Both the position numbers and the translations under genes were made by a program. From assembly GCA_017512805.1 (NCBI GenBank), contig JAFWES010000060.1, positions 1 to 64,000 of the forward strand: a stretch of 64,000 nucleotides of DNA. Direction: 5' to 3'. Under the pieces are notes generated by a model. It saw only the letters and a program-made list of their open reading frames with translations. It was not told the DNA's origin and made no database searches. Shown here in pieces: positions 428 through 49,878 of this stretch; position 1 is the first letter of the stretch; every line of letters begins with the position of its first letter. This stretch comes from Clostridia bacterium. GTDB taxonomy: Bacteria > Bacillota > Clostridia > Christensenellales > Aristaeellaceae.

Positions 428-670
428 CAGTCGCTCCGCACTGAGGTATTCCCCTCCTGGGGACGCCTCGCCTGCACGGGGCTGCCGCCCGTTCTCCGCT
501 GAAAACGGTCCACTGGACCGTTTTCCGGGCGCTCCGAACCTCCGTTCGCTTACGCAGCGGTTCTAAGCTCTGTCTTCGGCATTCGCCTCGTCAATCGCTA
601 AGAACCGGCGAGACTCAAGGCCCCCGGAGGGAAACACCTCAGCGCTGCGCTTGCTGGAATGAACAGTTAC
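428..670 (-). repeat. Dispersed palindromic element, copy A (variant core)
   Basis: This element fills the 300-base gap between the dehydrogenase and the aldolase genes. Its ends are inverted repeats: CTGAGGTATTCCCCTCC (441-457) matches the reverse complement of 626-642 at 15 of 17 positions. Its core differs from the 310-bp copies. It holds a 25-nt perfect palindrome (501-525, 12-bp arms GAAAACGGTCCA / TGGACCGTTTTC) that recurs only in copy G. The element ends 17 bases after the aldolase stop codon. Strand is given so that the end nearest the upstream gene reads first. Confidence 0.9.
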
Positions 671-687
671 TCGGAAACGATGTTTGT

Positions 688-1581
688 TTACTGGATCAGC
701 CCCATGCCGACCAGCACCTGGCGCAGCTTCTCCCGCTGATCGTCATGCAGCGGCAGGATCGGCGGCACGCAGTCGCCGCAGTCGTGCCCGATCAGCTTCA
801 GTGCCTCCTTCAGGGTGACCGGGAAGGAGCCCATGTTGGTGGCGATGCGAAGCGCGCTGAGCCGGAACTGGGCCTCCAGCGCGCCCTGGTAATCCTTCGC
901 CTGGAACTTCTCGTAGATGTCCACGGCGATCCGCGGAGCCACGTTGGCGCAGGACGCGATGGCGCCGCTGGCCCCGTAGTGCAGACCCGCCAGGATCAGG
1001 GTGTCCCGGCCCATCATCACGCTGAAATCCATGCCCCGGGTCAGGCGGATGTACTCCTCCGCGTTGGTCATATCCCCGGTGGAATCCTTCGCGGCCACGA
1101 TGTTGTCGATCTCCGCCAGCTTCGCGATGGTGGCGGGCTCCACGGTCACGTTGGTCTTGGGCTTGTTGTTGTAGATGATGATCGGCAGGCTCGTCTCCGC
1201 CGCGATCGCCTTATAGTAGGTATACACTTCCTCCTGGGTCTGGCTGACAAACATGGGAGTCAGCACGCTCAGGGCGTCGATGCCCCCCACCCGTTCCACC
1301 GCTTTCGCGATTTTGATGGCGCCCTTGGTGGTAATGTTGTTGGCGCCGGCGTAAATCTGCATCCGGCCGGCCACGGCGTCCTTGGTCAGCGCCAGCAGGT
1401 CATCGTAAAAGCCCTGGTCGTAGGCATAGAATTCGCCGGTGGTTCCAAAGGGAAACACGCCGTGAATGCCGTTTTCCGCCAGGTAGTCCACCAGGCCGCG
1501 ATAAGCCTTTTCGTTCAGCCTTCCCTCCGCGTCCACCGGGGTCACGATCGGGACGACAATTCCCTGAGGTTTGAATGACAT
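688..1581 (-). CDS. DapA / N-acetylneuraminate lyase family aldolase
   Basis: This 297-residue protein is a class I aldolase-type lyase of the dihydrodipicolinate synthase superfamily. The family signature GTTGE is at residues 46-50. The catalytic tyrosine is Y137 in IIIYNN, and the Schiff-base lysine is K165 in VAAKDSTG. The length is normal for the family. The start is supported by AGGAG 6-10 bases upstream and by a sigma-A type promoter at 1620-1649. True DapA usually clusters with lysine genes. Here the neighbours are a GarR-like dehydrogenase and a PrpR-type regulator, so a catabolic member (for example a keto-deoxy sugar acid aldolase or dehydratase) is more likely than lysine synthesis. 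The substrate is not determined. Confidence 0.85.
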   Translation of the reverse strand: MSFKPQGIVVPIVTPVDAEGRLNEKAYRGLVDYLAENGIHGVFPFGTTGEFYAYDQGFYDDLLALTKDAVAGRMQIYAGANNITTKGAIKIAKAVERVGGIDALSVLTPMFVSQTQEEVYTYYKAIAAETSLPIIIYNNKPKTNVTVEPATIAKLAEIDNIVAAKDSTGDMTNAEEYIRLTRGMDFSVMMGRDTLILAGLHYGASGAIASCANVAPRIAVDIYEKFQAKDYQGALEAQFRLSALRIATNMGSFPVTLKEALKLIGHDCGDCVPPILPLHDDQREKLRQVLVGMGLIQ

Positions 1582-1619
1582 GACTCAACTCTCCTTTCAT
1601 CGCCTTGGCTTCTATGGTA

Positions 1620-1649
1620 AATCTAACACGGTTTTCCCCCATCCGTCAA
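1620..1649 (-). promoter_or_regulatory. Predicted sigma-A promoter of the DapA-family gene
   Basis: On the minus strand TTGACG (1644-1649), an 18-base spacer and TAGATT (1620-1625) lie about 40 bases upstream of the start at 1581. It shares a 200-base divergent intergenic region with the regulator promoter. No TGGCAC-N5-TTGC type -24/-12 sequence was seen. Confidence 0.6.
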
Positions 1650-1715
1650 CGAAGAAATGCGGCTCGATCTGCAACGTTTTCGCACGCTTGAAATGTTTTG
1701 AAATTCATTCGTTCA

Positions 1716-1744
1716 TTGACTTCCCCGCGCCGCGGTGGTATCAT
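1716..1744 (+). promoter_or_regulatory. Predicted sigma-A promoter of the PrpR-type regulator
   Basis: TTGACT (1716-1721), a 17-base spacer and TATCAT (1739-1744) lie about 40 bases upstream of the regulator start at 1785. The arrangement is divergent to the aldolase promoter, as expected for a regulator controlling its neighbour. Confidence 0.7.
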
Positions 1745-1784
1745 GGGATCAGCGCAGAAAAAAAGAAGTGGGAGTTGATGTTGA

Positions 1785-3701
1785 ATGGCGAAAGCCGCGA
1801 TCCTGATGCCCTATCCGGATCTGAAGGATCTGTTTGATTCTCTGATTGAGCATTATCCCCGGCTGCTGCCCATGACCGTGGAGTATGTAGAAACGGACCG
1901 GGTCGCGGAACGGGCCGTATTCCTGGCGAACGAGGGGTGCGAGCTCTTCATTGCCCGGGGGCTGCAGGCCCGGCTGATCCGGGCGGCGGTGGAAGTGCCG
2001 GTCATTGAAATGCGGGCCTCCACCCAGGAGCTGGAAAGCCTGGTTCTGGCCCTGAAACAAAAAACGCGCCCCGCCCCGGGTGAAAAGCCCAGGCTGGGCA
2101 TCATCGGTTTTTTCAACATGTTCCACAGCACGGAGCGGTTCAATTCCCTGCTGGACGTGGATCTGAAGGTCTATACCGCCACGGACATCGAGCAGTACGG
2201 CCTCCTGGTGAATCAGGCGGTGGCAGATGGGTGCCGGGGCGTCATCGGCGGGGAGTTCGTCCTGAAGCAGGCCGCCGTTCACGCGCTGCCCTCCTGCTTC
2301 CTGTCCATGGGGGAGGAAAGCGCCCGGGAAGCCCTCGAATCCGCTTCCCTGGTGGGCTACAGCATCGATCTGCACAAACGGTCCGCCGCGGAAATCAACG
2401 CCATGCTGGATCACACCCCCTACGCCCTCGCCCAGGTGGATGAAACCGGCGCCATCCGGCTGGTCAACCGGCTGTTTCTTTCCCTGGCCGGCAAATCCCC
2501 CCGGGATCTGATCGGCCGCCCCATCCTGGATATCGTTGACGATCTTTCGCCCGTTGAGCTGCGGGACGCGCTGGAAAACAGCCGGGAAATTGAATCCTCC
2601 GTGGTCACCCTGGGGCATCGGAAGGCCCTCCTGAATATCACCCCCGTCCTGGTGGAAAGCCATATCTCCGGCGCGATTCTGACCTTTCAGGAGAGCCAGC
2701 GCGTTTCGGAAATGGACACCACCCTGCGGAAGGACGCCGCCCGCCGGGGGCAGGGCGCCCGATATACCTTTGACCACATTTTCGCGGAAAACCCGGCCTT
2801 CCAGCATACCATCGGCCAGTTAAAGCGCCTTTCCCGCTTCCGCGTTCCGGTCCTCCTGCAGGGGGAATCCGGCACCGGCAAGGGGATTCTGGCGGAATGC
2901 ATCCACAACGAATCCCTGAACCGTGAGGGCGCCTTTGTCGCCCTGGACTGCGGCAGCACCCATCCGGACGATCTGGACGAAAAGCTCTTCGGCCGTTATT
3001 CTTCCCGGAAGGAAGGGGATCTCTCCGCGGTCGAAACCGCCCGCGGCGGAACCCTGTACCTCCGGCAGGTGGACCGGCTTACGCCCGAAACCCAGTTCAA
3101 GGTGCTGCAGCTCGCCCACGGCCAGTACTGCAGCAACGGCAGCAGCCTTTCCATCCCCGTCGATCTGAAGCTGATCCTCACCACCGAGGTCAATCTGCAG
3201 CAGAAAGTGGCGGAAGGCTCTTTCCTGAAGGATCTGTATTACACCCTGAACGCCCTTCGCATCTTCATTCCCCCCCTCCGGAGCCGACGGGAGGATATTC
3301 CCGCCTGGTTTCACGCCCTTCTTCATGACCGATGCCGGGCGCTGGGCCGACAGGTTTATCTGGCCCCGGAAGCGCTCCAGACCCTGTCCGCCTATCCCTG
3401 GCCCGGCAACCTGGACGAGATGATAAGCCTGTGCGACCGCCTGATCCTGCTGTCGGAAAAGCGAACCGTCGAGGAGGATATTCTCCTGCAGCACCTGCAG
3501 GCCATCAGCAGCGAGAGCCCCTCCGAGGACGCGGCCGGGGACGCGGCCATCCTGAATCCCCGGGCGCAGGAGCTGCTGAATCTGCTGAACCGGCACCATG
3601 GCAATCGGGAAAAAGCCGCCGCGGAGCTGGGCGTCAGCAAGACCACCCTCTGGCGGCGGATGAAAAAATACGGCATCGCCCGGGATCTTTCCCTGGAGTG
3701 A
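1785..3701 (+). CDS. PrpR-type regulator with PAS, degenerate sigma-54 AAA+ domain and Fis-type HTH
   Basis: This 638-residue regulator has a PrpR-like sensor at about residues 1-195, a PAS domain at about 205-300, an AAA+ domain at about 330-560, and a Fis-type helix-turn-helix at about 590-632 (KAAAELGVSKTTLWRRMKKYG). The Walker A motif GESGTGKG (360-367) is intact. Other AAA+ elements are lost. No GAFTGA loop follows LFG (401-403). The Walker B DE is replaced by RQ in GTLYLRQVD. The usual FRxDLYYRLN segment reads FLKDLYYTLN, which removes both arginine-finger positions. It is therefore unlikely to remodel sigma-54 polymerase and may act as an ordinary ligand-responsive regulator at sigma-A promoters. 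Its divergent position suggests control of the aldolase and dehydrogenase genes. Confidence 0.88.
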   Translation: MAKAAILMPYPDLKDLFDSLIEHYPRLLPMTVEYVETDRVAERAVFLANEGCELFIARGLQARLIRAAVEVPVIEMRASTQELESLVLALKQKTRPAPGEKPRLGIIGFFNMFHSTERFNSLLDVDLKVYTATDIEQYGLLVNQAVADGCRGVIGGEFVLKQAAVHALPSCFLSMGEESAREALESASLVGYSIDLHKRSAAEINAMLDHTPYALAQVDETGAIRLVNRLFLSLAGKSPRDLIGRPILDIVDDLSPVELRDALENSREIESSVVTLGHRKALLNITPVLVESHISGAILTFQESQRVSEMDTTLRKDAARRGQGARYTFDHIFAENPAFQHTIGQLKRLSRFRVPVLLQGESGTGKGILAECIHNESLNREGAFVALDCGSTHPDDLDEKLFGRYSSRKEGDLSAVETARGGTLYLRQVDRLTPETQFKVLQLAHGQYCSNGSSLSIPVDLKLILTTEVNLQQKVAEGSFLKDLYYTLNALRIFIPPLRSRREDIPAWFHALLHDRCRALGRQVYLAPEALQTLSAYPWPGNLDEMISLCDRLILLSEKRTVEEDILLQHLQAISSESPSEDAAGDAAILNPRAQELLNLLNRHHGNREKAAAELGVSKTTLWRRMKKYGIARDLSLE

Positions 3702-3726
3702 CAGGGAAAAACCCCGGAACGGCATC

Positions 3727-3758
3727 GGGCCCCCGCTTTCCGCGGGGGCCCGTTCTTT
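3727..3758 (+). terminator. Rho-independent terminator after the regulator
   Basis: A perfect 10-bp stem (GGGCCCCCGC / GCGGGGGCCC) with a 5-base loop is followed by GTTCTTT. It lies 25 bases after the regulator stop and before the convergent peptidoglycan-binding gene. Confidence 0.85.
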
Positions 3759-3855
3759 ATGGGTGTTTTCCTTATTTCTTTCCTTTTCCGCCTGACCGGA
3801 TCCGGCAGGCATGAGCCCGGTGTCATTTGCCTTTCCCGAAGAACGCGGAAGGGCT

Positions 3856-6279: not shown

Positions 6280-6303
6280 ACTCTCGACCTCCAATACCTT
6301 GAA

Positions 6304-6322
6304 AGCAGGAAAAAATCCTGCT
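6304..6322 (-). other. Stem-loop in the leader of the SH3/peptidoglycan-binding gene
   Basis: Perfect 7-bp arms AGCAGGA / TCCTGCT flank a 5-base loop between the promoter and the ribosome binding site. It is followed by no T-run, so it is more likely a leader stem than a terminator. Confidence 0.5.
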
Positions 6323-6334
6323 GACATACTGATA

Positions 6335-6359
6335 CACGATTACATTTTACGTAATCGTG
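6335..6359. promoter_or_regulatory. Candidate operator palindrome over the promoter
   Basis: Perfect 9-bp arms CACGATTAC / GTAATCGTG with a 7-base centre overlap the spacer and -10 box of the promoter at 6344-6372. This is the expected position for a repressor site. A weaker inverted repeat, TTGTAA / TTACAA, lies at 6389-6408. No cognate regulator gene is visible nearby. Confidence 0.6.
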
Positions 6360-6372: not shown

Positions 6373-6411
6373 CAGGATTTTCATCTTTTTGTAATATTTC
6401 TGTTACAACCT

Positions 6412-7080: not shown

Positions 7081-7089
7081 CGATCCTTC

Positions 7090-12133: not shown

Positions 12134-12443
12134 GTAACTGTTCATTCGCTCCGCTCTCTGAGGTATTCCCCTCCGTGTGACGGCTCGCGCCTCCGTTCGC
12201 TTACGCAGCGGTTCTAAGCTCTGTCTTCGGCATTCGCCTCTCCGTTCGCTCAATGGTCGTTCAGAGCCCTTGGGGCGGGCTCTTAACTCCCTTTCGCGCT
12301 AACAAACTCAGCTTCCTTTCGCCTTCGGCGAACTGCCCACTGGGCAGACGGTCGCTTCGTTAGCCAATCGCTAAGAACCGGCGAGACTCAAGGCACCCGG
12401 AGGGAAACACCTCAGCGCTGCGCTTTCACAACTGAATAGCAAC
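12134..12443 (-). repeat. Dispersed palindromic element, copy B (full length, 310 bp)
   Basis: This full-length copy ends 6 bases after the stop of the peptidoglycan-binding lipoprotein gene. It has the CTGAGGT-N2-TCCCTCC-type inverted ends and a 15-nt palindrome CTGCCCACTGGGCAG. It also has a hairpin with GAGCCC / GGGCTC arms and the outer pair GGTTCTTAGC / GCTTAGAACC. Its internal sequence is nearly the same as copies C and I. The remaining gap bases 12000-12133 hold nothing that I recognise. Confidence 0.93.
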
Positions 12444-15215: not shown

Positions 15216-15278
15216 GCCATTTTTCCCTCCTGTTCCTCCATCCATATGCGCAACCCTGTCTTCCGTTGTGGCGATTTC

Positions 15279-15308
15279 GTCGCTCCGCTCTCTGAGGTAT
15301 TCCCCTCC
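15279..15308 (-). repeat. Dispersed palindromic element, fragment F
   Basis: Only the end sequence remains (GTCGCTCCGC then CTGAGGTATTCCCCTCC). It lies 1 base after the rlmH stop and ahead of the barnase-type gene. It matches the stop-distal end of the full copies. Confidence 0.85.
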
Positions 15309-15309
15309 G

Positions 15310-15827: not shown

Positions 15828-16134
15828 GTAACTATTCAGTCGCTCCGCACTGAGGTATTCCCCTCCTGGGGACGCCTCGCGGCTCCGTTCGCTTACGCAG
15901 CGGTTCTAAGCTCTGTCTGCGCCATTCGGCTCTCCGTTCGCTCAATGGTCGTTCAGAGCCCATGGGGCGGGCTCTGAACTCCCTTTCGCGCTAACTAACT
16001 CAGCTTCCTTTCGCCTTCAGCGAACTGCCCACTGGGCAGACGGTCGCTTCGTTAGCCAATCGCTAAGAACCGGCGAGACTCAAGGCCCCCGGATGGAAAC
16101 ACCTCAGCGCTCCGCTTTCTCGACCGAAGAGTTA
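15828..16134 (-). repeat. Dispersed palindromic element, copy C (full length)
   Basis: This near-full copy (307 bp) is almost the same as copies B and I, including the CTGCCCACTGGGCAG palindrome. Its edge reaches into the DUF2142-like gene: the stop TAA of that gene (16132-16134) is part of the terminal TAACT-like sequence of the element. Confidence 0.92.
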
Positions 16135-21462: not shown

Positions 21463-21647
21463 AACTGTTCAGTCCCGCAAGCGCAGCGCTGAGGTGTTTC
21501 CCTCCGGGGGCCTTGAGTCTCGCCGGTTCTTAGCGATTGACAAGCCGTATGGCGCAGACAGAGCTTAGAACCGCTGCGTAAGCGAACGGAGCCGAGAGGC
21601 GTCCCCCGGAGGGGAATACCTCAGAAAGCGGAGCGACTGAATAGCCA
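21463..21647 (+). repeat. Dispersed palindromic element, copy D (internally deleted, inverted)
   Basis: This 185-bp copy keeps both inverted ends and the GGTTCTTAGC / GCTTAGAACC pair but lacks the internal palindrome block. It is the only copy whose orientation is reversed relative to the gene whose stop is nearest (21683). It lies between the predicted promoter and the FAD oxidoreductase start, so it would be transcribed as a 5' leader. Confidence 0.9.
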
Positions 21648-23035: not shown

Positions 23036-23057
23036 GCTCCGCATTCTGAGGTATTCC
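23036..23057 (-). repeat. Dispersed palindromic element, fragment E
   Basis: Only the end sequence GCTCCGCA-N2-CTGAGGTATTCC remains. It abuts the stop codon of the MBOAT gene. It matches the stop-distal end of the full copies. Confidence 0.75.
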
Positions 23058-26112: not shown

Positions 26113-27657
26113 TTAAAACTTTATAACCAGGATATCCCGAATCATCTGAACCGATCCGTCCGCCGGATAGGAGGGCATGGCCTGCACCTCCGGCCACGCC
26201 GCCGGATCCTCCCCCCAGTACCAGTTTCCTTCAAAGCCGCACCACGCCCGCATGAAGAATTCCTTGAACAGGTGGATGTATTCGGTGGTATTGTGTCCGT
26301 ACAGGTTCAGCTGGATAAAGTCCATTTCCGGCAGGTCGTAGATGGTGGGATCCAGGTTCGACCAGTCGTTGACGAAGCAGATTTCCGTCTCCGGCGTATA
26401 TCCCGGAGCGGATTTGATCCGGGTGATCACCGTCGTATAATAGCTCATGGCCTCGGATTGCTGAAGGGTATCCTTCAGGTAGCACTGATGGTCGAAGCGG
26501 GCGTACATGAGCCCCGTCGCGGCCAGCCCCAAAGCGGCCAGCAGGGACACCGCCCGCCGGCCCCGGAAGGGCCTGGTTTCCAGGTCGTCCAGCTGGGCGA
26601 TCAGCAGCACGAAGGGCATCGCCCCGCCGAAAACCATCAGCCCGTGCACTTCTTCGCTCATGACATAGATCATGTTGCTTCCCAGCGGAAAAAGCGCCAG
26701 CAGCAGCGTCAGAAGCACCGCTTTCAGCCCGCTGCGGCGGCCCGTGCGGACGATCCGGAAAAGCGCCAGCAGGATGTTCGCCGCCAGCACGATCCCGTGG
26801 ACCGTGTAAAGGGATCCGGGATACATATCCTCGGCCACATTCCGCGGCGGCCGGAAAAACAGCGCGTACGCCTTTGCGCATCTGTCCAGGAACGTGGAAA
26901 GAGACATCACGCCCATCCGGTCGATCCCCTGATAGGAGGACAGCTGCAGGTTGAATTTCCACAGGAAAAACCGGTTCGCGGCAAAGTAGACGGCCATGAC
27001 GCCGGCCACGCAAAGGATCTGGATCCCCACCCGCTTCAGGAGGGCCCCGTTCTTTTCATCCGCTTCAAGGGTCATGAAATCATAGATCAGGATCACCGAC
27101 AGCAGAACCGGCAGGAACGCCTGATACACCCCGACGGACGCCCCGCCCAGCCCCGCTGCCACCGCCTTGGCCCACCAGGGCGTCTCCCGGCAGATCAGCC
27201 AGGCGGCCAAAACCGCCATCAACAGGCCGATCATGTAGGGATGGCTGGTGAACATATAGGAAAAGAGCGCGGCCATGGTGGGAAAGGCCACCAGCAGGCA
27301 GCCCAGCAGCGCGCAGTAGACCGGATTGCGGATCTTCAGCAGATCCGTCAGGATCGCGCAAACCGCCCCCACGCAAAGGATGGACACGATCCCGTTGTAC
27401 AGCGGGAGGCTGGTGTTCCCCGTCCCGAAGAACAGCCCTTCCAGCCAGCTGAGCAGGTGCAGCATCCACCGGCCGGAGGTAATAGTGGCTCCGAAGCCGA
27501 ACAGGTTGGCGATATCATCCTGATGGGACAGCTTGTTGAACAGCCCCGTTCCGTGGGCAAAGAGGCCGAAAAGCAGCGCGCCCAGCAGGGCCGCCCACAT
27601 CTGCGGGGCTTTGCGAGGATGAAGGTCCCCCCACCGGAAAGAACGCTCCTGCCTCAT
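26113..27657 (-). CDS. GtrII-like polytopic glycosyltransferase, paralog 1
   Basis: This 514-residue membrane protein has about ten hydrophobic segments. An acidic pair in the first outside loop (SHQDDIANLFGFG) is followed by TSGRWMLHLLSWLEG, and the soluble C-terminal end reads EVQAMPSYPADGSVQ. This layout is that of the GtrII (Glucos_trans_II) family, whose phage members move glucose from undecaprenyl-phosphate onto O-antigen outside the membrane. It is one of four paralogs in the window (others at 28773, 36168 and 52477). It overlaps the acyltransferase stop by 4 bases (ATGA), so translation is coupled. The sugar and acceptor are inferred, not shown. Confidence 0.85.
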   Translation of the reverse strand: MRQERSFRWGDLHPRKAPQMWAALLGALLFGLFAHGTGLFNKLSHQDDIANLFGFGATITSGRWMLHLLSWLEGLFFGTGNTSLPLYNGIVSILCVGAVCAILTDLLKIRNPVYCALLGCLLVAFPTMAALFSYMFTSHPYMIGLLMAVLAAWLICRETPWWAKAVAAGLGGASVGVYQAFLPVLLSVILIYDFMTLEADEKNGALLKRVGIQILCVAGVMAVYFAANRFFLWKFNLQLSSYQGIDRMGVMSLSTFLDRCAKAYALFFRPPRNVAEDMYPGSLYTVHGIVLAANILLALFRIVRTGRRSGLKAVLLTLLLALFPLGSNMIYVMSEEVHGLMVFGGAMPFVLLIAQLDDLETRPFRGRRAVSLLAALGLAATGLMYARFDHQCYLKDTLQQSEAMSYYTTVITRIKSAPGYTPETEICFVNDWSNLDPTIYDLPEMDFIQLNLYGHNTTEYIHLFKEFFMRAWCGFEGNWYWGEDPAAWPEVQAMPSYPADGSVQMIRDILVIKF

Positions 27658-28772: not shown

Positions 28773-30341
28773 CTAAAACTTCACGACCACCACCGAGTCG
28801 TTCACAATCTGAACAGACCCGTCCGCAGGATAGGACGGCATCGCCTGAACCTCCGGCAGGGACTCCAGATCGTTTCCCCAATGCCAGACGAAATCCGCGC
28901 CGCACCAGATCTTGACAAACTCCTCCCGGGTTTCTCCGTGAATGTACTCCCGGGAATTGTGCCAATAAGGATTCAGGCGGATAAAATCCAGTTCGTCAAT
29001 ATTGTACAGCGTCGGATCCCGCGACTCATCCGCGTTGGTAAAATAGACCTCCAGATCCGGGCGGTATCCGGGCAGGGACTTGATCCTCGTCACGACCGTG
29101 GTGAAATAGCTGATGGCTTCCTGCTGATGCAGCGTATCCTTCAGATAGCATTGATTGTCATACCGGGCATACATCAGGGCCATCGCCGCCAGCGCGCAGG
29201 CGGCCGCCCCGGAAACGGCCCGGTTCAGGCGGACAGCGCGGAAATCCAGCCGGTCAAACAGCCAGATAAAGAGCAGCACCTGCATGACCTGACCGTAGAC
29301 CATCAGGCCATGCACATTCTCCGCCATCACGAAGATCATATTGCACCCCAGGGGAAGCAGCGCAAACAGGATGGCCAGCAGCGCCCCGCGGCCGGCATGG
29401 CGCCGGCCGGTCCGGACGATCAGCCGGAGAGCCAGCGCGCCGTCGGCGGCCAGCATGAGGAAATACAGCGGCCGGAGCGATCCCGGATACATATTCCGGA
29501 AAACGTATTGCTCCTGGGACGGATTGAAAAAGTCACGGTAGGCCGCCGCGATGCGTTCCAGCATCATCGGGACCGTCATCCGGCCCATCTCATCGATGCC
29601 CTGATAGCCGGACAGCTCCACCTGGTATTTGTTCAGGAAGAAGCGGTTCCCCGCCGCGTAAAGGAGCATCACGCCCGCCGTGCACAGAATCTGAATGCCC
29701 ACATGCGTCCAGAAACGCCGCCCGGTTCCTTCTTCCGTTTCCTCGGAGAGGATCCGGATATCATCCAGCAGCAGGATGGTCACAAACACCGGCAGATAGG
29801 CCTGGTAGATCCCGACGGACACCCCGCCCAGGCCAACGCCGATCGCCTTCGCCCACCAGGGCGTCTTCGCGCAGATCAGATACGCGCCCGCCGTCATCAT
29901 CAGAAGGCCGATCATGTACGGGTGGCTGGTAAACATGTAGGCAAACAGCGACGTCACCACGGGGAAGGCGACCATCACGCAGCCCCACAGCCCGCAGAAT
30001 ACGCGATTCCGGATCTTCATCAGATGCGCCGTCAGCCCGGCCACGGCCCCGATGCAAAGGATGGAAACCATCCCGTTATACAGCGGAAGGCTGGTATTCG
30101 GCGTCCCGAAAAACGCGCCTTCAAGCCATTGAAACACCAGCAGGGCCCACCGGCCCGAGCTGAGGGTGGTCCCCAGGTCGAAGAGGCTGGCCGCGTCGTC
30201 ATGGTGGGAAAACTTGTTCAGCAGCCCCGTCCCATGAGCGAACAGCCCGAAAAGGACCGCGCTGAAAAAGGCAATCCGCACCTGCGGCGGAATTTTCCGC
30301 AGCGCGGTCATCACAGGATTCTGGTTCTCCTTCTGTTCCAT
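28773..30341 (-). CDS. GtrII-like polytopic glycosyltransferase, paralog 2
   Basis: This 522-residue protein is closely related to the protein at 26113-27657. It has the same acidic pair (SHHDDAASLFDLG), SSGRWALLVFQWLEG, NTSLPLYNGMVS, and the tail EVQAMPSYPADGSVQIVND. The tail ends VVVKF, like the other three paralogs. It is the second gene of block 1, 28 bases after the gene at 30370-32013, and is followed closely by the acyltransferase. The mix of strong similarity and clear divergence suggests duplication followed by specialisation for different sugars or acceptor positions. This is inference. Confidence 0.85.
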   Translation of the reverse strand: MEQKENQNPVMTALRKIPPQVRIAFFSAVLFGLFAHGTGLLNKFSHHDDAASLFDLGTTLSSGRWALLVFQWLEGAFFGTPNTSLPLYNGMVSILCIGAVAGLTAHLMKIRNRVFCGLWGCVMVAFPVVTSLFAYMFTSHPYMIGLLMMTAGAYLICAKTPWWAKAIGVGLGGVSVGIYQAYLPVFVTILLLDDIRILSEETEEGTGRRFWTHVGIQILCTAGVMLLYAAGNRFFLNKYQVELSGYQGIDEMGRMTVPMMLERIAAAYRDFFNPSQEQYVFRNMYPGSLRPLYFLMLAADGALALRLIVRTGRRHAGRGALLAILFALLPLGCNMIFVMAENVHGLMVYGQVMQVLLFIWLFDRLDFRAVRLNRAVSGAAACALAAMALMYARYDNQCYLKDTLHQQEAISYFTTVVTRIKSLPGYRPDLEVYFTNADESRDPTLYNIDELDFIRLNPYWHNSREYIHGETREEFVKIWCGADFVWHWGNDLESLPEVQAMPSYPADGSVQIVNDSVVVVKF

Positions 30342-33832: not shown

Positions 33833-36026
33833 TAAAGGATCGGCCGCGGCCGTCGTCCGGGCGGTTCTCCCCCGCGTCGCCATTTTCGCCTTTGGGGCGG
33901 CGGCGGCTTACGAAGCGCTCTATGTTTCCTCCCTGGGGAGAATCAACGCGCATATGGAGGAGCCGGCCGGGCTAGCCGGAACGCTGTCAGGCCTGGCGGC
34001 GTCCCTGGGAAGGAACGGCATCGCGGATATGCTCAGCCGCCTGACGGATCCGGACTTTCTGCTGGCGTTTTTGCTGCTGGCGGCCACCTGCTTCTTCGGC
34101 GAAATCTGCCTTCCGGGAAGGAAGAGGGCCGTCCTGCGGGAAAAAGCGTTCAAGCTGCTGCCCCCGGCGCTGATCCTCTTTACGCTGCTCTGGGTTTTTT
34201 TCCGGCTGAACACCACCAGCCTTTTCGCGTGGAGTCACTATATCCGGGGCAACGAAGGATATCCCCTTTTCGGGTCCGCCCGCATCACGCGGCGGGACGA
34301 ATTTGCCATCTGGACGCCCATGGCCCTTTCCCAGGAAGCGCTGGGATGGCCCGGGATCAATCCCCTCATGGGCAACGGGACGGATGTCACCTGGCTCAGC
34401 ATGGGCGGCTTGCCCGCCTGGAACGCGGCGCTGGTGTTTAAACCGTTATACTGGGGCTTTCTGCTGCTGGGTTCCGAGCGGGGGCTCAGTCTGCTGACCG
34501 GCTGCCGGGTGGTGCTGCTGTTCGCCGTTTCGTACATGACCGCCCTGCGCTGTACCGACGGCCGCCGGGGCATGAGCCTCGCGGCGGGCGCGCTGATGGC
34601 GCTCTCGCCCATGGTGCAATGGTTCGTCAGCCAGAGCATCGCCGAGGTGCTGATCTTTGCCCAGGGAATGGTGCTGGCGGTGGACGCCCTGCTGAAAAGC
34701 GACCGCGCCCGGTCCCGGATCCTGTACGGGGTGCTGACGGGATGGCTGCTGGGCTGCTTTGTCATGGTCGGGTATCCCGCGTGGCTGATTCCGGCCATGT
34801 ATCTCGTGCTTGCGGGGTGGATCTATCTGTTCACCCGCCCGGCGGTCGCCCAGCGCGGGCGGAAGCTGGGCTGCCTGCTGCTTGGCCTGCTCCCGGCCCT
34901 GGCCATGCTGGGGGTGGTAATTTACGGAAGCTGGGACACGCTGCAGGCGATCCGTCATTCCGCCTATCCCGGCAGCCGGCTGATCACCGGTGGGCTGGCC
35001 GACAGCGGGGAAATTACCGGGAACCTGTGGAACCCTGCCTTCAAGATTGATCTGGCGGCCCTTTTCTTCCCCCTGAGCCAAATGGAGCTGACCACCTCCA
35101 ATCCGGTGGACGCTTCCGTTTTTCTGACCTTCGCGCCGGCCGGGTTGGTGCTGAGCGTCTATCATCAGATCCGGGACAAAAAGGCGGATCCCCTCGCGCT
35201 GATGGTCACCGGCATCCTGGGTCTTTTCTGGCTGTTCACCTTTGTCCCGCTGCCCGCCTGGCTCTGCAGGCTGACCCTGCTTTCCCAGTGCAGCCGGCCG
35301 GTGTTCCCGATTCAGCTGTGCGAAATTTTCCTGCTGATCCGTTTCCGCGCCAGGGGCGGCATCCGGAATCCCTGGATCGCGGCCGGGGCCGCCGTCGCCA
35401 GCGCCGCTTTGAACCTGGGAAGCATCCTTTATGATCGCAGCGCCTGTCCCACCGCGGCGCAGCTGCTGATCATGGCGGCCCTGTATCTGCTGATTTTCTT
35501 CCTGCTGTATATGGATGTGCGGCAGACAGGAAAGCGGATGCTGGTGTTCTTTCTCTGCTGTGTCATGCTGCTGGCGGGGGGATTTGTCAATCCCGTGCAG
35601 CAGGGGCTGGACATGCTCGACGATTTTGAGCTGATCCATACGCTGAAATCCATTCCCGATGAGCCGGGGGATCTCTACGCCCTGGAAGGGGGATTTCCCT
35701 CCTCCGACGCGCCGCTGCTGGCCGGAAAGCACTGTATCAATACGGATCAGCCCTACGCGGACCTGGACCGTTGGAAAGCCATCGATCCGGAGGGTAAGCA
35801 TACGGACATTTACAACCGTCTGTGCCACGTGGCCGTGACCCTGGCGGAGCCGGGGGAAGAAACCGAATTCCGGGAGGAAGGCAATTACATCCTCCTGAAA
35901 CTGACGCGGGAGGATCTCTCCGCCCTGGGGGTCAATTATCTGATCACCCTGCGGGAGGAGATGGAAAACGCGACCCTCGTCGCCCGGAGCGACGCGGACG
36001 GGCTCAATATCTGGAAGCTGGAGTAA
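33825..36026 (+). CDS. Large polytopic membrane protein (YfhO/DUF7657-like candidate GT-C)
   Basis: This 733-residue protein has about a dozen membrane helices and a final soluble region of about 150 residues. The long first outside loop contains ITRRDEFAIWTPMALSQEALG and NGTDVTWLSMGGLPAWN, here quoted in part as RRDEFAIW and GLPAWN. The layout resembles YfhO-like or DUF7657-like proteins, some of which help glycosylate wall polymers. The match is by eye and not firm. The GTG start has AGGAGG 6 bases upstream and overlaps the previous gene by 8 bases. Repeat copy G begins just after its stop. Confidence 0.7.
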   Translation: MRNKGSAAAVVRAVLPRVAIFAFGAAAAYEALYVSSLGRINAHMEEPAGLAGTLSGLAASLGRNGIADMLSRLTDPDFLLAFLLLAATCFFGEICLPGRKRAVLREKAFKLLPPALILFTLLWVFFRLNTTSLFAWSHYIRGNEGYPLFGSARITRRDEFAIWTPMALSQEALGWPGINPLMGNGTDVTWLSMGGLPAWNAALVFKPLYWGFLLLGSERGLSLLTGCRVVLLFAVSYMTALRCTDGRRGMSLAAGALMALSPMVQWFVSQSIAEVLIFAQGMVLAVDALLKSDRARSRILYGVLTGWLLGCFVMVGYPAWLIPAMYLVLAGWIYLFTRPAVAQRGRKLGCLLLGLLPALAMLGVVIYGSWDTLQAIRHSAYPGSRLITGGLADSGEITGNLWNPAFKIDLAALFFPLSQMELTTSNPVDASVFLTFAPAGLVLSVYHQIRDKKADPLALMVTGILGLFWLFTFVPLPAWLCRLTLLSQCSRPVFPIQLCEIFLLIRFRARGGIRNPWIAAGAAVASAALNLGSILYDRSACPTAAQLLIMAALYLLIFFLLYMDVRQTGKRMLVFFLCCVMLLAGGFVNPVQQGLDMLDDFELIHTLKSIPDEPGDLYALEGGFPSSDAPLLAGKHCINTDQPYADLDRWKAIDPEGKHTDIYNRLCHVAVTLAEPGEETEFREEGNYILLKLTREDLSALGVNYLITLREEMENATLVARSDADGLNIWKLE

Positions 36027-36027
36027 G

Positions 36028-36155
36028 GTTCGGAGCGCCCGGAAAACGGTCCAGTGGACCGTTTTCAGCGGAGAACGGGCGGCAGCCCAGAGGAGCCGCG
36101 AGGCGTCCCCCGGAGGGGAATACCTCGGAAAGCGGAGCAACTGAAAAGCTGCGAG
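36028..36155 (+). repeat. Dispersed palindromic element, partial copy G (variant core)
   Basis: This copy starts 1 base after the stop of the preceding gene and holds only the stop-distal half. That half includes the 25-nt palindrome (36042-36066) shared with copy A and the GGAGGGGAATACCTC end. It separates two genes of the same block. Confidence 0.9.
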
Positions 36156-40914: not shown

Positions 40915-40946
40915 GGTCGCTGCGCTTGCAGGACTGAACAGTCACC
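40915..40946 (-). repeat. Dispersed palindromic element, fragment H
   Basis: Only the stop-proximal end remains, reading on the minus strand as ACTGTTCAGTCCTGCAAGCG. It lies 27 bases after the stop of the GT2 gene at 40974. Confidence 0.75.
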
Positions 40947-46007: not shown

Positions 46008-46056
46008 GGCCTATCCTCCCTGTCTGTTCGTGTTCTTATGCCTCGGCCCGCCGGCG

Positions 46057-46776
46057 TCAGGCCGGCCGCCCGGTTTGCTCCCGCCAGGGTTCTTTCTTCA
46101 GAACCCACTGGAGCACGAAGATGTTCATCCCCATCTGAACCATATAGCGAATGGACTTCCCCAGGCTGAGGTAGCTGACCCCCGCTTCCCGTTCCCGCAC
46201 GGAAACAGGGACCTCCCCCGTTTTCGCCCCGCAGCGGATCAGGAAAGCAACCGTGTCCGGCTCCGGCCGGGCCGTCGGGGCGTACGCCATATGCTCCATC
46301 ACCCGCCTGCCGTACACCCGCATGCCGCAGGTGGGATCGGTCAGCCGCCGTCCCGTGGTCAGGCGGACAGCTTCCTCAATCAGGGCGTTCCCCGCCATTC
46401 GCAGGCTTCGGGGCCTCTTTTCGGTCAGGAACCGGGACCCCAGAACCAGGTCCAGATTCTCTTTTTCCATCTTTTCCATCATCGGCCGGATGAACGCCGG
46501 ATCGTGCTGCCCGTCGGCGTCCAGCTGCATCACGGCGTCGTATCCTTCCTCGTAGGCGTACCGGACCCCCGTCTGAAAGGCGCCGGTCAGCCCCAGATTG
46601 GTGGGCAGATCCAGCAAAGGATACCCCTTCGCCCGGCAGATGTCCGCGGTCCGATCCCCGGAGCCGTCGTTCACCACCACAAAATCCACTTCCGGCGCTT
46701 TGAGCCGCAGCTCCCGCACCGTGGAAGGCAGACTTGCTTCTTCATTGTAAGCCGGAATCACCACCAGCAGCCGCAA
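46057..46776 (-). CDS. GT2 glycosyltransferase, dolichyl-phosphate mannosyltransferase-like
   Basis: This 239-residue GT-A enzyme has VVIPAYNEEASL, FVVVNDGSGDRT and a QLDADGQHDP acidic site (D-x-D type), followed by LVLGSRF. It lacks the two C-terminal helices of the GtrB-like enzyme at 40974. The DUF2304 protein that follows may supply membrane attachment. It is the first gene of block 3, under the promoter 46811-46839. It probably makes a polyprenyl-phosphate sugar. Confidence 0.9.
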   Translation of the reverse strand: MRLLVVIPAYNEEASLPSTVRELRLKAPEVDFVVVNDGSGDRTADICRAKGYPLLDLPTNLGLTGAFQTGVRYAYEEGYDAVMQLDADGQHDPAFIRPMMEKMEKENLDLVLGSRFLTEKRPRSLRMAGNALIEEAVRLTTGRRLTDPTCGMRVYGRRVMEHMAYAPTARPEPDTVAFLIRCGAKTGEVPVSVREREAGVSYLSLGKSIRYMVQMGMNIFVLQWVLKKEPWREQTGRPA

Positions 46777-46810
46777 ACCTTCCGCCCTCCTTCACATTCA
46801 AACCCACGAT

Positions 46811-46839
46811 ATTTTACTATGCAAGGGCCTTTCCGTCAA
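46811..46839 (-). promoter_or_regulatory. Predicted sigma-A promoter of glycan block 3
   Basis: On the minus strand TTGACG (46834-46839), a 17-base spacer and TAAAAT (46811-46816) are present. The spacer end and -10 (GCATAGTAAAATA) match the block 2 promoter at 32111-32140. Confidence 0.78.
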
Positions 46840-46842
46840 TCC

Positions 46843-46890
46843 CGCCGCCGGCGGTTGACAAGAAACGCCGCCGGCGGTTGACAAGAAACG
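46843..46890. repeat. Tandem 23-bp duplication carrying a -35 box
   Basis: Two exact copies of a 23-bp unit lie head to tail between the divergent promoters. Each has a GCCGCCGGCGG palindromic part and a consensus TTGACA (46855-46860 and 46878-46883). Only the second TTGACA has a -10 box at the right distance. Confidence 0.9.
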
Positions 46891-46906
46891 GGAATCCCGG
46901 TAAACT
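46878..46906 (+). promoter_or_regulatory. Predicted sigma-A promoter of glycan block 4
   Basis: TTGACA (46878-46883), a 17-base spacer and TAAACT (46901-46906) lie about 45 bases upstream of the start at 46951. The -35 box is in the second copy of a 23-bp tandem repeat. Confidence 0.7.
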
Positions 46907-46950
46907 TGAGGCGTTGCCCGGCCGGATCTCCGGCCGGGGAAAGGAGCAAA

Positions 46951-48804
46951 ATGAAGAAGTTGTTAAACCGGCGAAGCCTGATCCGCGCCGCTGTCCTGGT
47001 GGTGGCCGCCCTGGCCCTGGCCGCGGGGCTGGAATGGGTCATGCAGCGCACGCTGCCCCCGATCTTTACCGACGCGGAGGTGGATATCTCTTCCGATCCG
47101 ACCCTGATCCAGCGGGGGGTCACCTATACGCACCCCTCCGGGCGGTCCGCCCTCGTGGAGGAGTGGCACAGGACCCGGTTTATCGCAACCTTTCTTCTGC
47201 AGCTGGGCATCCTGATCCTGTTTTTCCCCCTCGGGGTGGGCAAAAAGATGGGGGCGGCGGTGAAAAAATCGCTGTCCGGCCTGAAGCAGACGCTGACGGC
47301 GGAAAAGCCCCGAAACCTGAAGCTGCTGCTCTGCTTTGTGCTGACCTTCCTGGCGGTGTATTTCATCGGCCGGGCCTGGGTGATGGATGTGTATCACCGG
47401 GATCACTGGATCGCCCGGGCCGTCTGTCTCTGGAGCGCCGCCGGCGCGGCCTGCCTGACCACCTTCCGCCGCACGCTGGGCAAAAAGCCTGAAGTCTTCT
47501 TCCTGATCCTGACCCTGATCGCCGGGGGGCTGATGGCCTTCTTCCTGCCGGCGGCCACCGGGGTCAGCCTGGACGACGGATATCATTATCAGCACGCCAT
47601 GAACTATTCCACCCTGGGGCGGGTCCGCTTTACGCAGGCGGAATGGGACGCCATGCAGGAGGATAATCAGAAGAATTACGAAATGGATCAATGGGCGTCC
47701 TTCCACGCGGCGGAGGACGCCAAATACGCCCAGGGCGCGGTCTACGTCACCGGCGGATTTCATCTGAGCATCAAGGAATACTGGCTCGCCGCTTCCGGTC
47801 TGGGCCTTTTCCTGGGCCGGGCGCTGGGGCTGCCCTTCTGGGTGACCTGGGGGCTTGGCCGCTTCTTCGGCCTGCTGGCCTACGCGCTGATCGGCTATGT
47901 GGCTCTCCGGCGGCTGAAAAGCGGAAAAATGATTGCGGCGATGGTTCTGATGATGCCCGGAAGCGTGTTCCTGGCCGCCAATTACAGCTATGATCCCGGG
48001 GTCATCGTCGGCATAACCCTCAGCTGCTGCTACTGGGCCGCCCAGTGGCAGGAACCCAAAAAGATCCTGAAAAACGGGGACGTTGCCATCATGATGGCGG
48101 GAATGCTGATCGCCTGCTATGCCAAAGCCATCTATTTCCCCCTCTTTCTGCTGTTCCTTTTCCTGCCGAAAAGCAAATTCCGCGGGCTCAAGCACCGGCG
48201 CGCGTACACCGCCGTTGTGCTGCTGTCCATGGTGATCGTGATGCTGTATATCCTTCTGCCGCTGGGGAAAAGCGGCGGCCAGGGGGACACCCGGGCCGAA
48301 GGAGATGTGAACACCTTCGGCCAGATCCGGTTTATCCTCACTCACCCCCTGCAGTACGCGGAATACCTGTGGCACTTCCTGCGGGAGTATCTGGGCGCCG
48401 GCGGGCTGGACGCCATGGTCACTTCCTACGGCTATCAGGGAGGTGGGCGAAACGGTACGCTGATCCTTCTGCTGATGGTGACCGCCGCCCTGACGGATTA
48501 TCGGGAAGAGGGGACCCAGCCGGCCGCGGGGGTTCGGGTCTTCGGGGAAATCCTGCTCTTCGGGGCCCTGGTGCTGATGATTACCTCCATGTACGTCTGG
48601 TTCACCGCCGTGGGCAGCCCGGAATTCAGGGGCATGCAGCCCCGGTACATGATTCCCTATGTGTATCCCGCCCTGGCGCTGGTGGGCTCCGGCCGCATGC
48701 GGAACCGGCGGAATCCCGCCCTGCATAACGGCGTCCTTTTTGCGGGGATGACGTTTGCCATTGTTTCCGGGTTCCTGTATAACTGCGTGGAATATTATCA
48801 CTGA
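46951..48804 (+). CDS. DUF2142-like polytopic membrane protein, second copy
   Basis: This 617-residue protein has an N-terminal helix, a short outside loop with TDAEVDISSD, and about a dozen later helices. It shows an acidic outside loop LDDGYHYQHAMNYS, and near the C-terminus SPEFRGMQPRYMIPYVYPAL. Both match the layout of DUF2142 proteins, and the PRYM/F-P-Y/L block is shared with the protein at 16132-17958. This suggests a GT-C glycosyltransferase fold, with sugar and acceptor unknown. AAGGAG lies 4 bases before the ATG; an earlier in-frame ATG at 46906 would overlap the -10 box. It opens block 4. Confidence 0.82.
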   Translation: MKKLLNRRSLIRAAVLVVAALALAAGLEWVMQRTLPPIFTDAEVDISSDPTLIQRGVTYTHPSGRSALVEEWHRTRFIATFLLQLGILILFFPLGVGKKMGAAVKKSLSGLKQTLTAEKPRNLKLLLCFVLTFLAVYFIGRAWVMDVYHRDHWIARAVCLWSAAGAACLTTFRRTLGKKPEVFFLILTLIAGGLMAFFLPAATGVSLDDGYHYQHAMNYSTLGRVRFTQAEWDAMQEDNQKNYEMDQWASFHAAEDAKYAQGAVYVTGGFHLSIKEYWLAASGLGLFLGRALGLPFWVTWGLGRFFGLLAYALIGYVALRRLKSGKMIAAMVLMMPGSVFLAANYSYDPGVIVGITLSCCYWAAQWQEPKKILKNGDVAIMMAGMLIACYAKAIYFPLFLLFLFLPKSKFRGLKHRRAYTAVVLLSMVIVMLYILLPLGKSGGQGDTRAEGDVNTFGQIRFILTHPLQYAEYLWHFLREYLGAGGLDAMVTSYGYQGGGRNGTLILLLMVTAALTDYREEGTQPAAGVRVFGEILLFGALVLMITSMYVWFTAVGSPEFRGMQPRYMIPYVYPALALVGSGRMRNRRNPALHNGVLFAGMTFAIVSGFLYNCVEYYH

Positions 48805-48818
48805 GAAGGCGTCTCCTG

Positions 48819-48842
48819 ATGAGTGAAGGGAGTCAGGCATAG
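48819..48842 (+). other. Seven-codon open frame directly before the ArnE/F-like gene
   Basis: ATG AGT GAA and four more codons end in TAG, which is immediately followed by the ATG of the next gene. An AAGG lies about 9 bases upstream. The main gene has a poorly spaced GGGAG inside this frame, so translation of the short frame could aid its start. This may also be chance. Confidence 0.3.
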
Positions 48843-49226
48843 ATGAAGCACGATCGAATCCATGTGACCCTGATGATGCACGGGCTGTTTCTGGTCTATT
48901 CCCTGACCACGGTGATCAGCAAGAAAATCGGCGGTGCGGCGCCTCTGAGCGCCCCGTTTCTGGTCGGTTTGGGGCTGATCTTCCTCTGCCTGGGGATTTA
49001 CGCGCTGGGATGGCAGAAAGTGCTCCAGGCGATGCCGCTGTCCAGGGCCTTTGCCCATAAGGCGGTGGTGGTGATCTGGGGGCTCTTCTGGGGGTGGGTT
49101 CTTTTTGGGGAGACCCTGACCCCCGCGAAAATCGCCGGCGCGGCGGTGATCATCTGCGGCGTGCTGCTTTTTGCCTTCGATGAAAAGGACAGCGGCGGGC
49201 GGAAAGAAGGCGGCGCGCATGGATAA
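48843..49226 (+). CDS. Small EamA/SMR-like membrane protein (ArnE/ArnF-like), first subunit
   Basis: This 127-residue protein has four predicted membrane helices and the C-terminal half typical of EamA/SMR-type transporters (LFGETLTPAKIAGAAVIICGVLLFAF in part, GETLTPAKIAGAAVI). The paired gene that follows is of the same type, as in ArnE/ArnF, which flip undecaprenyl-phosphate-aminoarabinose. A role in moving a lipid-linked sugar across the membrane is inferred. Its last 8 bases overlap the next gene. Confidence 0.75.
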   Translation: MKHDRIHVTLMMHGLFLVYSLTTVISKKIGGAAPLSAPFLVGLGLIFLCLGIYALGWQKVLQAMPLSRAFAHKAVVVIWGLFWGWVLFGETLTPAKIAGAAVIICGVLLFAFDEKDSGGRKEGGAHG

Positions 49227-49566
49227 GGTTTTTCTTTATTCCCTGCTGATCCTGATCAGCACGCTGATCAGCGCGATTTCCCAGGTGCTTTTGAAAAAGG
49301 CCGCCCTGATTCACTATGACACCTGGTACCGCGGATACCTGAATCTGCGGGTCATATCCGCCTATGCCATCTTCTTCCTGGCGACCCTGATGACGGTAAT
49401 CGCCTACCGGGTGGTGGATGTATCCTCCGGAACGCTGCTGGAAACCTCCAGCTATATCTTCGTTTTTGCGTTTGATGTGCTTTTCTTTCACGAAAAGATG
49501 ACCGGGCGAAAGCTGCTGGGAGCCGCTCTGATCCTGATCGGAATCGCCATGACGGTGCTTCTGTAA
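49219..49566 (+). CDS. Small EamA/SMR-like membrane protein (ArnE/ArnF-like), second subunit
   Basis: This 115-residue protein has four predicted helices and ends with EKMTGRKLLGAALILIGIAMTVLL, here EKMTGRKLLGAAL, the usual last-helix pattern of this group. It overlaps the preceding gene by 8 bases, so the two are likely made in equal amounts as a heterodimer. The start at 49219 has GAAGG about 10 bases upstream; an earlier ATG at 49171 lies deep inside the previous gene. Full repeat copy I begins 2 bases after its stop. Confidence 0.77.
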   Translation: MDKVFLYSLLILISTLISAISQVLLKKAALIHYDTWYRGYLNLRVISAYAIFFLATLMTVIAYRVVDVSSGTLLETSSYIFVFAFDVLFFHEKMTGRKLLGAALILIGIAMTVLL

Positions 49567-49568
49567 AC

Positions 49569-49878
49569 GTAACTGTTCCGTCCTGCAAGCGCAGCGCTGA
49601 GGTGTTTCACTCCGGGTGCCTTGAGTCTCGCCGGTTCTTAGCGATTGGCTAACGAAGCGACCGTCTGCCCAGTGGGCAGTTCGCTGAAGGCGAAAGGAAG
49701 CTGAGTTAGTTAGCGCGAAAGGGAGTTCAGAGCCCGCCCCAAGGGCTCTGAACGACCATTGAGCGAACGGAGAGCCGAATGGCGCAGACAGAGCTTAGAA
49801 CCGCTGCGTAAGCGAACGGAGGCGCGAGCCGTCACACGGAGGGGAATACCTCAGAAAGCGGAGCGACTGAATAGTTAC
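49569..49878 (+). repeat. Dispersed palindromic element, copy I (full length, 310 bp)
   Basis: This is the clearest copy and fills the gap between two convergent genes. It begins GTAACTGTTC and ends GAATAGTTAC. Its ends are inverted repeats. The core has CTGCCCAGTGGGCAG, and TTCAGAGCCC pairs with GGGCTCTGAA, while GGTTCTTAGC pairs with GCTTAGAACC. The remaining gap bases (49879-49920) hold nothing that I recognise. Confidence 0.95.

Follow-up and report, generated by a model that had tools for sequence, protein, structure and literature searches.

The window (i.e., the whole 64,000-nucleotide stretch analysed here) carries a family of nested palindromic repeats, composed of an outer shell (A) and inner units (B, C or D, E), at the nine places that the earlier note had listed (Table 1). 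Eight of the nine were recovered by blast followed by merging, and the ninth (23036-23057) was seen in the sequence. The three near-full copies, previously described as almost identical internally, share 92-95% mutual identity, and inverted repeats are present as had been stated, both at the ends and inside. The six longer copies are intergenic with respect to the predicted genes, which they overlap by at most 3 bp.

Table 1. Copies and remnants of the nested repeat family in the window, with the core units C that they contain.
Feature	Position	Strand	Remarks
Shell A copy with inner B lacking C, and inner E	428-670	+	Loop GATT-GA; E at about 469-541
Full nested copy, shell A + B + C	12134-12443	+	Flanks GTAAAATC / ATAGAATC, 6/8 matching
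Core unit C	12241-12365	-	Model R1 match; GG strand is minus
Shell A, left-end fragment	15275-15309	+	
Full nested copy, shell A + B + C	15828-16134	+	Flanks 5/8
Core unit C	15933-16057	-	Model R1 match
Shell A + B, lacking C	21463-21647	-	Loop GATT-GA
Shell A, left-arm fragment	23036-23057	+	Missed by blast at E 1e-3
Half of shell A + inner E	36026-36155	-	Begins where the predicted gene before it ends
Shell A, right-end fragment	40915-40946	+	
Full nested copy, shell A + B + C	49569-49878	-	Flanks 5/8
Core unit C	49647-49771	+	GG strand is plus; RNA fold -60.4 kcal/mol, z -5.7

Across the host genome, 68 blast pieces fall into about 42 places (34 regions elsewhere plus eight places in the window), and the family, whose copies the earlier note had proposed to count, is thus multi-copy. 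Judged by eye, the copies vary in content as well as in length, with A, B, C or D, and E as separable modules, and the arrangement of shell A + B + C occurs in five copies of the host genome. Given that the modules vary independently and that C is also found alone in the genus, the reading of the family as a single element was rejected. We consider it probable (about 0.75) that each full copy consists of mobile elements nested in one another, i.e., an IS66 MITE shell and inner units that were mobile separately at GG dinucleotides. The shell layer is an ordinary IS66 MITE, and the novelty lies in the inner units. As alternative identities, a structured RNA or a non-autonomous mobile repeat had been offered, and both have a basis, each in a different layer, action of the core as an RNA being a possibility.

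Shell A, with the outline GTAACTATTCAG...CTGAACAGTTAC, belongs to the ISBst12 group of the IS66 family as a non-autonomous miniature transposon, with GTAAC at its ends and a duplication of 8 bp at its targets. Among the lengths of direct repeat flanking the shells, 8 alone stands out (0.646 vs. 0.287). The flanking 8-mers match at six or more of eight positions in 11 of 22 distinct shells, where 0.48 would be expected, and none of 100,000 permutations reached the observed mean. Target-site duplications, which had been suggested as a check, are accordingly evident at the level of the family and poor for the window's own shell copies, whose flanks match at 1, 4, 5, 5 and, at best, 6 of 8 positions. 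In genus-mates, the IS66 transposase sits between shell-type ends: shell ends and an 8/8 duplication surround an IS66 reading frame at L305 (2263-3853) and an IS66 frame at L309 (1266-2614), the latter a fragment of 194 aa that scores under the cut-off of the family. The ends GTAACTATTCAGTCG are common to the shell and L305, and GTAACTGTTCAG to the shell and L309, while shell-like ends also adjoin IS66 matches in L303, L304 and L310. By genome, G042 and G024 have matching ends around an IS66 gene, and G029 and G031 have them next to IS66 matches; in the shell-bearing genomes G032 and G037, a search for IS66 with matching ends found none. The single IS66 copy in the host assembly, which is 88% complete, is cut by a contig end and has different ends (GTAACCGCTCAATAACTCC). 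The earlier note had matched the repeats to no named family and had regarded a match to an IS-derived MITE as contrary to its reading. Such a match was found for the outer shell, which can be named as an ISBst12-group MITE; the core layer, in keeping with that note, has no Rfam match. Movement of the shell probably depends on an IS66 transposase supplied in trans, and composites with B and C in place, an arrangement with five copies in the host genome, were probably copied as shells.

The core unit C is about 122 nt long and contains three hairpins. Wherever empty and filled sites are comparable, C lies as GG-unit-GG in one fixed orientation relative to the GGs, and it is found in decayed tRNA and 5S rRNA gene copies as well as in the loops of other palindromes. 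Filled B is 122 nt longer than empty B, the difference lying at GATT^GG; among 16 distinct listed forms of empty B, however, only 10 have GG at the site, the others having GA, GT or TG. Comparison with an intact gene of the same locus placed C at GG for tRNA-Val (L061, and both copies in L062, there within a run of Gs), tRNA-Ser (L078), tRNA-Ala (L120) and 5S (L201 and L204); in the 5S cases the core unit is antisense to 5S. At L208, C forms tandem arrays with a period of 122, in which neighbours share one GG. In total, 104 of 119 core copies begin with GG and end with CGG, a count in which such matches are favoured because the core model includes these ends, and the flanks carry about zero information. 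The base 3' of the right-hand GG is usually A, as against T or C in the intact target, and a simple duplication of 2 bp therefore does not account for the junction.

We propose that the inner units would be mobilised as a folded single strand, ssDNA being likelier than RNA, and that a hypothetical enzyme acting in trans would join the strands at GG. Hairpin loops may be favoured or at least tolerated as targets, and the nesting could result from this. As a tentative suggestion, to which we give somewhat less than even odds, the inner units might represent a new kind of mobile element, i.e., a folded strand of about 122 nt, without an autonomous form, that a putative enzyme inserts at the GG dinucleotides of loops in structured nucleic acids. 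The targets proposed for such an element, which was found here in one family of Clostridia, comprise tRNA D-, V- and T-arms, 5S rRNA and hairpin loops. No gene-carrying (split) core copy was found in 312 sequences (1.41 Mb).

The unit that forms the core layer is mobile in its own right and conserved in its fold, and it or its relatives are present in many copies across the genus. Model matches to the core unit or a relative, frequently numerous, were found in 24 of the 25 genomes of the genus, the count per genome running from 0 to 58; the unit also occurs alone, outside shells. The host genome has 24 matches, 16 of which are listed at 88 bits or more, and G002 has 58, of which 26 reach at least 62 bits and the others are weaker relatives. 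In the branched core fold, 26 of the 37 pairs show changes on both sides, and covariation amounts to 0.534, compared to at most 0.078 in slid controls; the core thus pairs more than by chance, and the compensatory changes that the earlier note had proposed to seek are present in this unit. At gathering score, no Rfam family matches the inner units themselves, while a tRNA match spans a unit at L219 and 5S matches touch the unit ends at L201. A permissive Rfam search of eight loci returned one tRNA, with the remaining matches below gathering scores.

The strong covariation would also be expected if the core were kept for a working RNA, i.e., a structured 3'-end or intergenic element such as an mRNA stabiliser, a terminator-like structure or a tRNA-linked RNA, the spread being incidental. 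Where a predicted gene lies within 100 nt upstream, the core unit is sense to that gene in 19 of 23 cases, and for three copies the RNA fold z is -3.1 to -5.7 on the GG strand vs. -1.3 to -3.2 on the opposite strand. Counted on the GG strand, G.U outnumbers A.C by 59 to 17 (31 to 10 among 68 representatives) in the helices that are better aligned, i.e., P2, P3 and the three hairpins; this result, clearer than that over all helices, depends on the choice of helices, as P1, P4 and P5 are omitted. The first two P1 pairs (143 G.U vs. 1 A.C) and P4 (30 vs. 6) lean the same way, P1 pairs 3-7 (4 vs. 22) and P5 (12 vs. 33) run in the opposite direction, and all pairs minus the first two are near even (105 vs. 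78, p 0.054). Folding of ssDNA, however, accounts for the same covariation and strand bias. Copies within decayed tRNA and 5S copies, within other repeats and in tandem arrays, the antisense orientation of the 5S-linked copies, and numbers of matches that range from 0 to 58 among genus-mates all argue against maintenance as an RNA, which we regard as rather unlikely.

Separate mobility of the inner units raises the question of the mover, and the candidates IS607, IS110, reverse transcriptase and RAYT do not fit. A retroelement with a reverse transcriptase is unsupported, as the gene is missing in six of the seven genomes with at least 24 core matches (95-99% complete); the host genome has one. 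A further candidate explanation is movement of the inner units, as REP/REPIN-like repeats, by resident RAYT-type Y1 transposases. Y1 genes occur in 19 of the 25 genomes and RAYT-like genes in all seven with at least 24 matches, and the number of matches correlates with the RAYT-like count (rho 0.52, n 25; 0.70, n 13). The GG-unit-GG arrangement, with its single polarity and its lack of long terminal inverted repeats, resembles that of Y1 elements. Genome completeness, however, also correlates with the number of matches (rho 0.69), and three genomes with 6-15 matches (G031, G040 and G016) have no RAYT-like gene. When 35 loci (32 Y1, 3 serine recombinase) were scanned for the core, a single weak match was obtained, a 105-nt relative in L276; of 15 RAYT-like genes drawn, most are flanked, as judged by eye, by long palindromes of another sequence. 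The core also lacks the GTAG tag, and each tnpAREP is reported, in an excerpt of PMC6006769, with its own REP family. RAYT as the mover of C is therefore unsupported, and we consider this explanation improbable.

For the copies linked to tRNA and 5S, it could be argued that local duplication of these genes, followed by decay and recombination, rather than transposition was the main route of spread. L062 does consist of two tandem whole-gene copies with C at the same place in each, and several flanks appear by eye to be inverted copies of a tRNA 3' half. That a similar unit lies at unrelated GG sites in the shell/B loop, hairpin triloops, gene ends, D-loop, V-loop, T-stem and 5S makes this quite improbable. 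Least probable of all are non-autonomous relatives of IS607, whose GG core dinucleotide would fit, or of IS110, whose RNA-guided mechanism with a structured RNA and a two-base core is reminiscent of the unit, since an IS607 transposase above cut-off was found in 0 of 25 genomes (weaker serine-recombinase matches in 15) and IS110 is in 10 of 25, including only G002 and G001 of the seven with at least 24 core matches, and is absent from G035, G023, G041, G008 and G000 (24-44 matches).

A pattern scan of a species collection (84,980 genomes) returned 96 stretches. Among the 80 listed, 79 have Clostridia-type titles, many of which name ruminant gut sites, and the remaining one, from Nocardioides, is taken as chance. 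In an order-level sample, with stricter filters and 11 candidates scored per genome, 9 of 297 genomes match, in three genera of one family. Carriage by phages or plasmids is unsupported, as a search of 50,697 phage and 72,556 plasmid records with a nested copy gave no match. An IMG/VR contig (L311) matches the second-domain pattern, bears a related small hairpin there, and has near its end a blast match to the 5' half of the core. The titles and abstract openings listed in searches of the open-access literature contain nothing on the core unit.

The nested palindrome is thus resolved into two testable layers, an IS66 MITE and a genus-wide, covarying, high-copy mobile unit, and each can be compared with known systems. 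The shell shares its GTAAC...CAG ends and 8-bp duplication with the IS66 ISBst12 group and its MITEs; ISDge4, a published element of this group, is reported in an excerpt of PMC12898284 to have the TIRs GTGACTACTCAGCA / GTAACTGCTCAGCA and an 8-bp repeat. The likeness is confined, by eye, to about 30 nt from the ends, and the interior of the shell is made of foreign nested palindromic units instead of an IS interior. The core unit resembles IS607 and IS110 in a two-base core common to both ends, while a matching transposase is missing in most high-copy genomes. Cyanobacterial small dispersed repeats are likewise mobile, nested and very small, and no mover is known for them; compared by description only, the core unit differs from them in its defined GG junction and covarying fold, and its insertion rule is fairly clear (i.e., GG, fixed polarity, loops and tRNA/5S copies). 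Like the inner units, the GTAG- and CGTC-tagged REPs/REPINs are short folded intergenic repeats that lie mostly downstream of genes. REPs, however, measure 20-40 bp, and the core unit, with its three hairpins, has outer ends of GG...CGG without a GTAG or CGTC tag at the hairpin's outer foot and is not located beside RAYT genes. By eye, CGTC is seen at the foot of one core hairpin in most rows of alignment A2. REPs inside other palindromes, and CGTC REPs without a dedicated transposase, are both reported in PMC3733652, and the core unit provides a concrete route into the spread and nesting of such non-autonomous palindromes.

The window shows nested mobile DNA, in which an IS66-family MITE (outer shell A) holds smaller, GG-targeted palindromic units. 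All nine places that the earlier note had claimed for the palindromic family were borne out in the window sequence, and the three near-full copies it had described as almost identical share 92–95% identity; one of them lies on the opposite strand to the other two. The six longer copies are all intergenic relative to predicted genes, and the gene neighbourhood of the window copies is unremarkable (a SPOUT methyltransferase, a DHDPS-family gene, glycosyltransferases and an EamA transporter, among others). Three predicted proteins of the window (repeat families D1 and D2) resemble one another, and no NCBIfam match was found for them. The copy count called for by the earlier note came to 68 blast pieces with one copy as the query against the organism's own assembly (3.07 Mb in 93 contigs, with 88% completeness). 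Merging the pieces leaves about 42 places, of which 8 lie in the window and 34 in other regions. By eye, the 42 places together show a modular architecture with shell A outermost, unit B within A and the core unit C inside the loop of B; elsewhere there is E or D, the latter with the architecture of C and altered stems. A variant shell was also seen by eye in loci L010 and L022–L024.

Target-site duplications, likewise sought at the suggestion of the earlier note, were found at the level of the family (8 bp), whereas the window's own copies are poor in this respect, matching at 1, 4, 5, 5 and 6 of 8 positions. Among 24 rows, in which two places were entered on both strands, direct repeats of exactly 8 bp flank the shells (0.646 matching vs. 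0.287 with the flanks mispaired); of the lengths 2 to 12, 8 alone is conspicuous. With each place counted once, the flanking 8-mers match at 6 or more positions in 11 of 22 places (0.48 expected), and the mean flank match of the 22 shells was reached by none of 100,000 permutations; 8 of the 18 own-genome shells reach at least 6/8. A search of 16 genomes for the IS66 transposase gave matches in 5. Two genus mates, G042 and G024, carry an IS66 gene or gene piece between shell ends (loci L305 and L309; see table), and shell-like ends adjoin IS66 matches in G029 and G031. No IS66 transposase was found in the shell-bearing G032 and G037, and the single IS66 copy of the own genome is cut by a contig end and has ends unlike those of the shell. 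ISDge4 is an ISBst12-group IS66 element reported to transpose in Deinococcus; its ends are almost those of the shell, and it has an 8-bp repeat (PMC12898284). Two Paracoccus IS66 elements are tabulated with a value of 8, taken as repeat length (PMC3281130). Given the 8-bp repeats, the genus-mate IS66 genes with shell ends and the likeness to ISDge4, shell A is an IS66-family MITE and, within these, a previously undescribed member. The shell acquired the GG-targeted units and probably then spread together with them.

Features located by coordinates in the window and in fetched loci (L-numbers)
Sequence	Coordinates	Strand	Feature
Window	26113-27657		Predicted protein, ~520 aa
Window	28773-30341		Predicted protein, ~520 aa
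Window	52477-54033		Predicted protein, ~520 aa
L305 (G042)	2263-3853		IS66 gene flanked by ends that equal or almost equal the shell's; duplication 8/8; frame 231 bits vs. IS66 profile (cut-off 180)
L309 (G024)	1266-2614		IS66 gene piece flanked by ends that equal or almost equal the shell's; duplication 8/8; 110 bits, below cut-off 180
L208	1424-2445		Core units head-to-tail, period 122 nt, one shared GG per junction
L219	2511-2702	+	Rfam tRNA match, 35 bits, spanning inserted core unit
L204	883-964	+	Gut-1 RNA (RF01706) match; locus also holds 5S rRNA with inserted unit

A 310-bp copy matches 30 of 41 genus genomes and, among the matches listed, most genomes match over the middle ~125 nt alone. 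An alignment of 29 copies supports a fold of two domains: a closed stem bearing a pair of hairpins, and a further stem that carries a single long hairpin. The compensatory changes that the earlier note proposed to look for are present, both sides having changed in 26 of 37 pairs, and 96.5% of cells are pairing. Covariation was 0.534 vs. at most 0.078 with slid partners, a comparison tilted towards the fold, since the consensus of the same sequences was in part the source of the structure. In the shuffle control, 0/500 shuffles reached the observed value on four of five measures, and the number of pair types (352/500) gave no separation. The resulting model matches 24 of 25 genus genomes of at least 85% completeness (0–58 hits each, weaker relatives of the core unit included), with 24 hits in the own genome, at least 16 of them at ≥88 bits, and 26 at ≥62 bits in G002. 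Of 297 genomes sampled across the order, 9 had hits, confined to three genera of one family; the relatives' records are Clostridia by title, many naming ruminant guts. A related class of ~105 nt (L128, L130, L141, L181 and similar) combines a long bulged hairpin with the same conserved second domain, and several members lie, by eye, directly at gene 3' ends.

Insertion at GG is seen in unit B, where filled forms, CTTAGCGATT-GG-[unit]-GG-AGAGG, are 122 nt longer than empty ones, CTTAGCGATT-GG-CGAGG. GG is present at the site in just 10 of 16 distinct empty B forms listed, and both empty forms in the window read GA. Filled sites mostly read A after GG where the intact base is T or C, which means that insertion does not simply duplicate the target. 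Unit E lies between two GGs at two distinct sites (the window copy at 428 and L025; L009), but not in L040. A GG start and CGG end were found in 104 of 119 flanked core copies, a figure biased upward because the model contains those ends; the flanks themselves carry almost zero information.

Comparisons within one locus against an intact tRNA-Val(GAC) (L062, two copies), tRNA-Ser(CGA) (L078), tRNA-Ala(CGC) (L120), tRNA-Val(CAC) (L061) or 5S rRNA (L201 and L204) each place the unit at a GG, which belongs to the 5S sequence or, in the tRNAs, to the D-loop, T-stem or variable loop. A T-arm motif lies within 40 nt downstream of 22 of 119 core copies (2 on the other strand; 1/116 in a farther stretch), and 5 of 119 have 5S-like flanks. 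Of 28 loci scanned with ARAGORN, 18 contain an intact tRNA gene (at least one region being present under two ids), and in all ten loci drawn with a tRNA the unit lies within a decayed second copy adjoining the intact one. Such decayed copies adjoin intact tRNA genes and terminators in L062, L078, L083, L100, L198, L200, L202 and others, and several repeat, by eye, the 3' half of the tRNA in inverted orientation. L219 holds a predicted tRNA-like gene whose variable region is interrupted by a core unit.

On the strand reading GG...CGG, helices P2 and P3 and the three hairpins contain 59 G.U vs. 17 A.C pairs, the first two P1 pairs 143 vs. 1, and P4 30 vs. 6. The bias is opposite in P1 pairs 3–7 (4 vs. 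22) and P5 (12 vs. 33), where variant classes are poorly aligned; all pairs minus the first two give 105 vs. 78. This strand folded better than its complement in 3/3 copies. By an ad hoc gene caller, 116 of 119 core copies are intergenic. With related copies counted separately, the unit is sense to a gene ≤100 nt upstream in 19 of 23 cases, and in tandem gene surroundings 19 are sense vs. 7 antisense. Strand bias and context are compatible with the folded strand as the functional form, RNA or ssDNA alike. In L048, L086, L090, L135, L169 and L203, units start in a gene's last codons and appear, by eye, to provide its stop codon.

Regarding a mover of the inner units, Y1 transposases occur in 19 of 25 genomes, and the RAYT-like subset in all seven genomes with at least 24 core hits. 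RAYT-like count correlates with core hit number at rho 0.52, vs. 0.69 for genome completeness. Two RAYT-like proteins scored 70 and 72 bits, just short of the NCBIfam cut-off of 80. Long palindromes of other sequence adjoin most of 15 RAYT-like genes drawn, and a scan of 35 loci gave a single weak match, to a core-unit relative. These palindromes vary from gene to gene, e.g., GGGGACGGTTCTTTTGTC or GTGACAGT...CTGTCCC (L257, L260, L263, L267, L268, L271–L273, L275, L276 and L278). IS110 (10 of 25 genomes) and reverse transcriptase (9 of 25) are missing from 5 and 6, respectively, of the seven hit-rich genomes. No IS607 transposase exceeded the cut-off in the 25 genomes, with weaker serine-recombinase matches in 15. 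Among 312 sequences there was no core copy into which a gene had inserted, and in two near-closed genomes the model hits included no split core pair. The inner units did not fit REP, IS607 or IS110 as a class, which sets them apart from all three; in how they work, the inner units are like REP-type or other hairpin elements.
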